Shown here: positions 13,201-16,200 of the stretch, piece by piece
Layout of the letters: the number at the start of each line of letters is the position of its first letter
Position numbering within the stretch: the stretch's first letter is position 1
NCBI RefSeq assembly: GCF_030463565.1
Contig: NC_134649.1
Span: forward strand, 37,783,044-37,847,043
From: Pelecanus crispus
Taxonomy: Eukaryota; Chordata; Aves; Pelecaniformes; Pelecanidae
DNA length: 64,000 nucleotides
Direction of reading: 5' to 3'
Notes under the pieces: generated by a model
Database searches by the model: none
The model's input: only the letters and a program-made list of their open reading frames with translations
What the model was told of the DNA's origin: nothing
Made by a program: the position numbers and the translations under genes

Positions 13201-16200
13201 GCCGCAGAGCTCCCCTCATTTTTCACTGTAGACTGTGTTGTTTAAAAGCCACCCACTCCCTAGATTAAAGGAGACACAAACCCCGCTGAACTCGACATGG
13301 CCTGCTTCAGTTATTAGCAAAAAGAATTTCCTCTCCAGTTAAATACTGTAGGATTTGCATAAACTATATTAAGAGAGATTTCTATATTAAGCAGACCTGC
13401 CCTCGAACCATCAGAGGCAAATGAACTTTTAGCAGAGAGCTTTCCGAGGCAGAAACAGAAATCTAGGAGTTACATGCTGGGTTTTAATAGAGCTATTCTA
13501 CAATGCCGTGTTTCCCACGTTGTGCTACTAAAACTAATAATGAAGCAGTAGTAAGGTAAACTGCTCCCTACCAAATCCAAGCTGTATTGTTGAAAAATCA
13601 CAAAAATGGCAAAGAACTGAAAGCTTGTTTTTTACAGTAATTTCCAGAGTGCATGCTGAAACTGAACTTTCTCAAAAAATCAGCGTTACCAGGATTTTTC
13701 TGCCTTTAGAACAAAAATCGTGACGGAGCCTTTGGCATTCTGTATCCATTCCCAATCTGCTCAGCTTTACTTTCTCATCCCGTAGTATTTGCAACAAAAA
13801 AGAAAGCACAGAATGGGAGGTCCTTTTGCTTGGATTTAATTCTAGAAAACCTCTTCCTTTGACTCTTTCTTTAACGTGTTGTGTGTTTGCAGGTGTGTGT
13901 GTGTTTGTGTACACGTGTACGTGTGTAGCTGTGGCAGGAGAACACAGGATCTAACCATCAGAGTGCAATAGATATGGGAGGGGAGCGGTGCCCAGTGCAG
14001 ATTAAGGCAGTTCTCGTTACTGAAACGATAACTTCCATCTGACACAATAAGAGTGTCACTCTTTCTCACCTTGCAGAGAGAGCTGCCTATTTCTGATCAT
14101 GACATAAAATACTCGCTGGAGTCTGGGCGTTCTCGAAACACTGAGCTCCTTGCTGCATGTGCTGTAGATGTCACTGCTGTCTGATTGTGCTTGAATTAAC
14201 ACACTGTTTTGACTTCTGGAAAACGCCTAAAGGACAATGCAAAAAGCTTTTGTGAATTTGTTTTTAAAGAAAGAAATCCGGTTTCTTCGTGTTTCCATTT
14301 AGAAGGCAGAGAGTGTGTGAACTGTGGAGCAACTGCTACCCCTCTCTGGAGAAGAGACGGCACCGGGCATTACCTGTGTAACGCCTGCGGGCTCTACCAC
14401 AAAATGAATGGTCAAAACCGACCTCTCATTAAACCTAAACGAAGGCTGGTAGGTGTCTCCGTTTCTCCTGGGTTTGGGGATAAATTAGGCAAAGGGACCA
14501 CACGCAGGCACAAGTCGAACGTGTCTCATCTCCGCTCAGCCCCTGCGCAGAGCCGAGCTGTACTGTACACGGGGGTCAGTCACCTCCAGGTCACTGCCGC
14601 GCCTCGGGGCAGACCTCCCCCCACCATCCCCCCCAGCCCCGGCATCCCCGGCACAGACCACCACGCCGCCGCAGCCCGCCGAGCGCGCCTCTGCCCCGAG
14701 CCTCCCTGCCGCTCTCAATACATGCGGGATATCGTGTATCCGTCTCCCCGTTTATCCTTGGATGACAGCTTTTAATTTAATTCCTCATTTATTTGGCCTC
14801 TTGGGACGTTTTGGGCACATACTGGGAGCGAAAGGGTTATGAGCATGAATGTCCTCCACCGTGTACTAAAAAAAAGTTCCAGCTCCAAAAAGCAAAACAA
14901 ATCACATGAGTCAAAGCTACTGCTCCCTACTTAATAATTATTTGTATAAAAACCATGAAGTAATTTTCACTCTTATATTCTCTGGCAATATTAATATTGG
15001 TTCCCTCCCCAGACAATCCCCTACTGTTTAAAAAAAAAACTTATTATTTTTCCATGGAGTCACCTATACTTTGTATTTTCATTTGAGTGATTTAAAAAAA
15101 ATGTCCTTTCTAAGCTCCTGGTAGTAGTTTCCTATCCGGATATCTGTACGTTAAAGATAAGGAAACTTTGTGTATCTGTTTCCTGACTCTAAAAGCTTTA
15201 GAGAGTTTCTATAGGCAAGCCTTGCCAGTCATGCTTGCTGTTTTGAAATTTCTAATACACTCTACTCCACAAATAATGCGTAAAATGCTAAGAATAATAA
15301 ATATATTTTTTGGAGCTTTGTGATTTATGGTGCCCAACTCTCAGCTATTTGTGGGCACGTTTCAATGAGGTTTGGAGAGCAGAAAATTGGCATTACTGCT
15401 CTAACACTGGGATGGGATAGAGAAGATTTGTCGTGAGTCAGAATTTCAACTATGCAAGCTTCTTAATGACTTGCCTTCTAAAGTGACTGACATATAGAAA
15501 AATGTTAAGACAACAGTGTAACATTATCGTCTCGCAGGCTCAAGTGCTTTCCCGTCTGAATGGGACAGGCTGTAGAGTTAAGCAGCATAGCTGAGTATCA
15601 GTAAGCCGTCTCAAATATGCAAACATAGGTCTCCACCTTCCAGTGTATTGGGGGACTTATACTTGGCTCACTGCGAGGGGTTCAGGGGGCACCAGAGAGG
15701 TTTTCTTTTAGTTTAGTTGTTTTAATGTTTTGTTTTAATTGATTTACAGCTTTGTTTATTGCCCCTTTTTCCACTGTAGTTTGCTTGTTTGCCGGGGAGA
15801 GGAGATGGCCATCTTTGGGAATTTGTTCATCTGACATGCAATAGCGAAGTGATCACATTAATAATGCCAGTGTTTGCAAGTCTGGCATTAATTGTGTTTG
15901 GGTTGCATGAGTGTACTTGCAGTAGGGGGTACCCCTCTTTCTGCCTTTGGCTTGTTCTCACAGGCGAGTAAGGGACTGAAATATATGAGTCTCCCAGGGC
16001 CTGACTCTTGCCTTAAGCTGCTGAGCCGTCCATCAGCTTTGGGAAAGTTACAGAGGGCCATGGTGTAGACCAGCAGCGAGAACAGAACCCAGTGCTGGGT
16101 TCTGGTTTGTGAGCCAGGTCAGTCTGTGCTTCGAGCGGCACCAGCTCCCCGGCGGAGCCGGCAGGCAGGGAAGCGCACAAAAGTTCTCGTCTGGGAAACC

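Follow-up and report, generated by a model that had tools for sequence, protein, structure and literature searches.

A TATCTG-GATA-ETS composite in GATA2 intron 4 of Pelecanus crispus as a probable positional counterpart of the +9.5 enhancer with a one-letter E-box difference

GATA2 carries an enhancer in its fourth intron (mouse +9.5, human +9.9, zebrafish gata2a i4) in which an E-box precedes a GATA motif with ETS sites nearby. The human E-box/GATA/ETS element is given as 44 bp long (PMC10613526), and its GATA motif was reported as important in a human reporter (PMC4556642). Two human disease variants are named for it in PMC9291163, c.1017+513_540del, labelled there as the loss of an ETS site, and c.1017+572C>T, at a position that a CpG is said to make a mutation hotspot. 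How strictly a full E-box is required at such composites can be judged from GATA1 and TAL1 occupancy in mouse cells. In the ChIP-exo data of PMC4702602, about three quarters of some 4,000 locations with both factors were linked to a partial E-box whose TG precedes WGATAA by 7 or 8 bp; a second tally in the same source finds 1,650 of 2,997 sites with TG at a distance of 7-9 bp. No other single form was as common as the exact CANNTG, but it too accounted for only a minority of GATA1/TAL1 sites (PMC4702602). TAL1 lies over positions 1-2 of the E-box and E2A over the TG; the sole base-specific TAL1 contact described runs from E196 to N4 of the C at position 1, and the predominant, not required, bases at positions 1-2 are MA or BG (PMC4702602). 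SCL frequently occupies GATA sites without an E-box (PMC5220053), and of the ATAC peaks at loci activated by GATA2, 11.3% are reported to contain a full E-box-WGATAR composite (PMC10065080).

The window, i.e. the whole 64,000-nucleotide stretch analysed here, contains the complete coding region of GATA2 on the + strand in five coding exons (10006-10234, 10982-11581, 14303-14448, 17475-17600 and 18422-18721, together spanning 10006-18721). Joined, they form a 466-aa open frame without internal stops and with GT/AG at the internal junctions, and the product matches the GATA zinc finger of Pfam. Within a finger segment of 111 residues, residues 53-101, with the C-finger, are identical to the GATA-2 chain 5o9b; the GATA-3 chain 4hc7 scored highest because it covers both fingers, and the same segment differs from it at 3 of 110 aligned positions. 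The gene is thus GATA2, and it is intact. Intron 4 (14449..17474, + strand, 3026 nt, GT donor and AG acceptor) separates the N-finger exon from the C-finger exon. The locus lies on a contig of 52,003,911 bases in an assembly of 1,314,409,820 bases and 310 contigs.

The putative enhancer core occupies 15128-15184 and reads TTTCC-TATCCGGA-TATCTG-TACGTTAA-AGATAA-GGAAAC-TTTGTGTATCTG-TTTCCT. The preliminary description had reported TATCTG, 8 nt and then AGATAAGGAAAC, with ETS-like sites on both sides, and position, spacing and GATA and ETS context can all be read in the sequence as described, including TTCC cores on either side. TATCTG stands at the position of the E-box (15141..15146, + strand; intron 4 position +693), where it keeps the TG (CTG) half and has T instead of C at position 1. 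An 8-nt spacer, TACGTTAA (15147..15154, +), leads to AGATAA (15155..15160, +), which directly adjoins the ETS-like core GGAAAC (15161..15166, +). Further ETS-like cores are found upstream (TTTCC at 15128..15132, GGAAA on the minus strand) and distally (15179..15184, AGGAAA on the minus strand, with TTCC at 15180-15183). Five GATA/TATC cores start within 15133-15173, a 47-nt span that forms the densest cluster among the 223 such cores of the window, and AGATAA is the sole WGATAR of the five. As for the GATATC that had been proposed as an extra GATA-like site, the pattern is present as a palindrome (15139..15144) with cores on both strands, but it is weak, reading AGATAT on the minus strand, and neither core is a WGATAR. 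A feature absent from that earlier account is CCGGAT (15136..15141, +), a GGAT core of putative ETS type that is completed by the T at 15141. A second TATCTG (15173..15178), with the weak minus-strand GATA core AGATAC, lies 12 nt beyond AGATAA and adjoins the distal ETS core. Local duplication was rejected as the source of the two TATCTG copies, as no direct or inverted repeat of at least 10 nt was reported for 15060-15260 by a method that misses indel-bearing repeats. Judged by eye, TTTCCTATC (15128-15136) and GATAAGGAAA (15156-15165) are near mirror images that differ in length by one base, forming an ETS-GATA pair in each orientation on the two sides of TATCTG and its spacer.

The E-box pattern CANNTG is broken at 15141-15146, as had been stated, but the wording that the E-box core was lost goes too far, since the TG half is intact and only position 1 differs. 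“Lost” also assumes a direction, and an order of C before T is unsupported here, so that “lacks” fits better. It had been considered that the canonical CATCTG-N8-AGATAA might stand elsewhere in intron 4. A pattern search for CANNTG-N6-14-WGATAR returned no match starting in 14449-17530, which rules out a displaced canonical composite within the intron, and from about 14952 to 15350 CANNTG occurs just once, as CATTTG at 15080. Elsewhere in the window, the only CANNTG-N8-WGATAA is located 22.4 kb beyond the GATA2 stop codon (41107-41132, +), where CAGATG-N8-AGATAA is directly followed by CAGGTG, i.e. a full E-box, an 8-nt spacer, a GATA motif and a second E-box. This might be a candidate downstream enhancer of GATA2 or a chance occurrence.

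To what extent the core exceeds chance was judged from 2000 dinucleotide-preserving shuffles of intron 4 (14449-17474, 3026 nt), searched on both strands. CTG-N8-AGATAAGGAA did not appear in any of them, while [CT]ATCTG-N8-AGATAA and CTG-N8-AGATAA with TTCC/GGAA at most 25 nt away on both sides each appeared in one; AGATAAGGAA alone was seen in nine. The whole core is therefore beyond chance, given that the full composites reached only 0-1 of 2000 shuffles. The bare half-E-box composite, on the other hand, could be chance, because the loose form CTG-N7-8-WGATAA occurred in 231 of 2000. The exact TATCTG-N8-AGATAA is present once in the window and in none of 100 shuffles.

Across the assembly, the 26-nt pattern TATCTG-N8-AGATAAGGAAAC had three matches and its backward control none. 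Another of these assembly occurrences (L001, 1501-1526) is built on the inverted repeat TATCTGGAT-T-ATCCAGATA. The shorter TATCTG-N8-AGATAA gave 400 strand-wise matches (194 + 206, with self-complementary places counted twice) against 146 for the backward control, and TATCTG-N2-20-AGATAAGG gave 298 places against 98. The excess over the control does not set 8 nt apart, as the ratio of 400 to 146 is close to that of 298 to 98 for all spacings. A half-site favoured in this genome might be expected to show as an excess at 7-8 nt. Among the first 100 of the 298 places, nine had a spacing of 7 nt and six of 8 nt with a mean of 5.3 per spacing; this histogram is flat within noise and gives no clear sign that TATCTG prefers 8 nt before AGATAAGG.

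With a probability of roughly 0.6, we regard the element as corresponding in position to the GATA2 intron 4 (+9.5, i4) enhancer and as a working enhancer on which GATA2 and ETS factors would provide the hold and the bHLH pair would dock via its E-protein half. GATA2 or GATA1 would sit on AGATAA, ETS factors on the flanking GGAA/TTCC cores, and a bHLH heterodimer 8 nt upstream on the E-protein half-site CTG. With the E2A half kept and the base read by TAL1 changed to T, a weaker direct TAL1 contact is predicted. Because the C at position 1, the base read by TAL1, is T here, TAL1 would be held mainly by its contacts with LMO2, LDB1 and GATA. The element may then be described as a half-E-box-GATA-ETS composite whose parts and geometry are unchanged while the direct TAL1 contact is weaker. 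A weaker bHLH contact was among the options named in the preliminary description, and it is the one we favour. The one-letter difference is probably tolerated and not the sign of a broken switch. Some evidence speaks against easy tolerance. T at position 1 removes the sole base-specific TAL1 contact described in PMC4702602, and where natural variants break the TAL1 motif within a GATA1 peak, TAL1 itself tended to be lost (PMC5823854). Shear stress failed to induce a reporter from which 28 bp with the E-box had been removed (PMC5663362), a comparison limited by the removal of far more than one base. Furthermore, six of the twelve single changes that break an E-box keep TG anyway, which we count against the favoured reading. 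On the same side stand TA at positions 1-2, which is not one of the predominant MA/BG pairs, the 231 of 2000 intron shuffles with the loose CTG-N7-8-WGATAA, and the spacing counts of the assembly.

A different role of the same base has to be weighed. The T at 15141 changes three motifs at once, because a C there would read CCGGAC and lack the minus-strand GATA core. The bHLH input might consequently be gone from this position and replaced by CCGGAT and the minus-strand GATA core, with the element running on GATA2 and ETS alone. Both the GGAT core at 15138 and the dense clustering of five GATA/TATC cores at 15133-15173 would suit such an exchange of inputs. We nevertheless consider it unlikely, as WGATAR is found in only one of the five cores, two cores share a single palindrome and so overlap, the ETS and GATA readings come only from pattern matches, and CTG-N8-AGATAA remains in place.

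Still less probable is a reversed polarity, with TATCTG as the older state in this lineage and the full CATCTG as a gain in the mammalian line, which would be compatible with the mechanism of a half-site composite. In zebrafish gata2a i4, the E-box occupies another place with respect to GATA, and a spacer of some 9 bp is retained (PMC7018942); the E-box position is therefore not fixed within vertebrates. The same source, however, describes high conservation of the E-box, Ets and GATA sites. PMC5663362 speaks of an E-box-GATA element conserved in evolution and of an enhancer whose conservation spans some 350 million years. These remarks, as worded in the two sources, hint at an E-box older than mammals. 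There is a similarly small chance that T at 15141 reflects an error of the consensus, or a variant that is private or still segregating, in a species that normally has CATCTG: the base is known from one assembly only (a 1001-nt stretch fetched from it equals the window letter for letter, which is not an independent check), but it lies on a large contig (52 Mb) of a 310-contig assembly, and a random error at exactly base 15141 would be unlikely a priori.

Returning to the half-site composite as the preferred reading, its assignment to the i4 enhancer can be followed into the human variants by spacing. The second C in the distal TTCC lies 42 nt from 15141. Transferred to the human gene, this places the E-box at +530 to +535 and thereby inside c.1017+513_540del, which is consistent with, not proof of, that position, as any start from +513 to +535 fits as well. 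By the same spacing, the distal ETS-like site at 15179-15184 may correspond to the ETS site at human c.1017+572. If this alignment is right, the C that matches human c.1017+572 is followed by T (TTCCT; 15182-15184) and not by G, and the CpG is absent. An exact-pattern search that allowed C or T at 15141 had no match in viral_contigs or genome_contigs, and the protein encoded by GATA2 exon 4 had 10 and 168 pattern matches, respectively, none of them a confirmed relative. An absence of orthologues was to be expected, as these collections hold viral, bacterial and archaeal records. The proposed orthology accordingly rests on intron, order and spacing. A search of the open literature returned no study of the GATA2 i4 enhancer in birds, so that a bird sequence of it may still have been published.

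One cause of human GATA2 deficiency is a deletion that includes the E-box. A healthy lineage without the full CANNTG would therefore separate the essential bases of the composite from the others, and if our reading is true, the essential parts would be the E-protein half, the spacing and the cores for GATA and ETS, and not the E-box in its entirety. Only tentatively can this be taken further, to a lineage-fixed T at a central GATA2 stem-cell enhancer that removes just the base read by TAL1 and keeps the E-protein, GATA and ETS contacts. GATA2 could then do without direct contact of TAL1 with DNA here, and the CCGGAT core that the T creates might make up for it. A lineage lacking the full CANNTG would also aid the reading of non-coding variants in the far half of the E-box.

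Set beside the described systems, the element shares spacing and GATA half with the canonical E-box-GATA composite (CANNTG-N6-14-WGATAR) and differs from it in the absence of CANNTG. It comes closer to the partial E-box composite TG-N7-8-WGATAA of PMC4702602, with which TG, 8 nt, WGATAA, order and orientation are all in common: TATCTG-N8-AGATAA has its TG 8 nt upstream of WGATAA. Positions 1-2 (TA, 15141-15142) fall outside the predominant MA/BG of that source, and the likeness is one of sequence. With the GATA2 i4 enhancer of mouse, human and zebrafish, the predicted enhancer has in common its place in intron 4 between the finger exons, AGATAA and ETS-like cores on both sides, and the spacer of 8 nt equals the one given for mammals in the preliminary description. 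The stretch 15141-15184 measures 44 bp, the length of the human element (PMC10613526), an agreement in length that leaves the human boundaries aside. Where the described enhancers have CANNTG next to the GATA motif, TATCTG stands here, and for this reason we call the element a positional counterpart and not a confirmed member of the group formed by mouse +9.5, human +9.9 and zebrafish gata2a i4.
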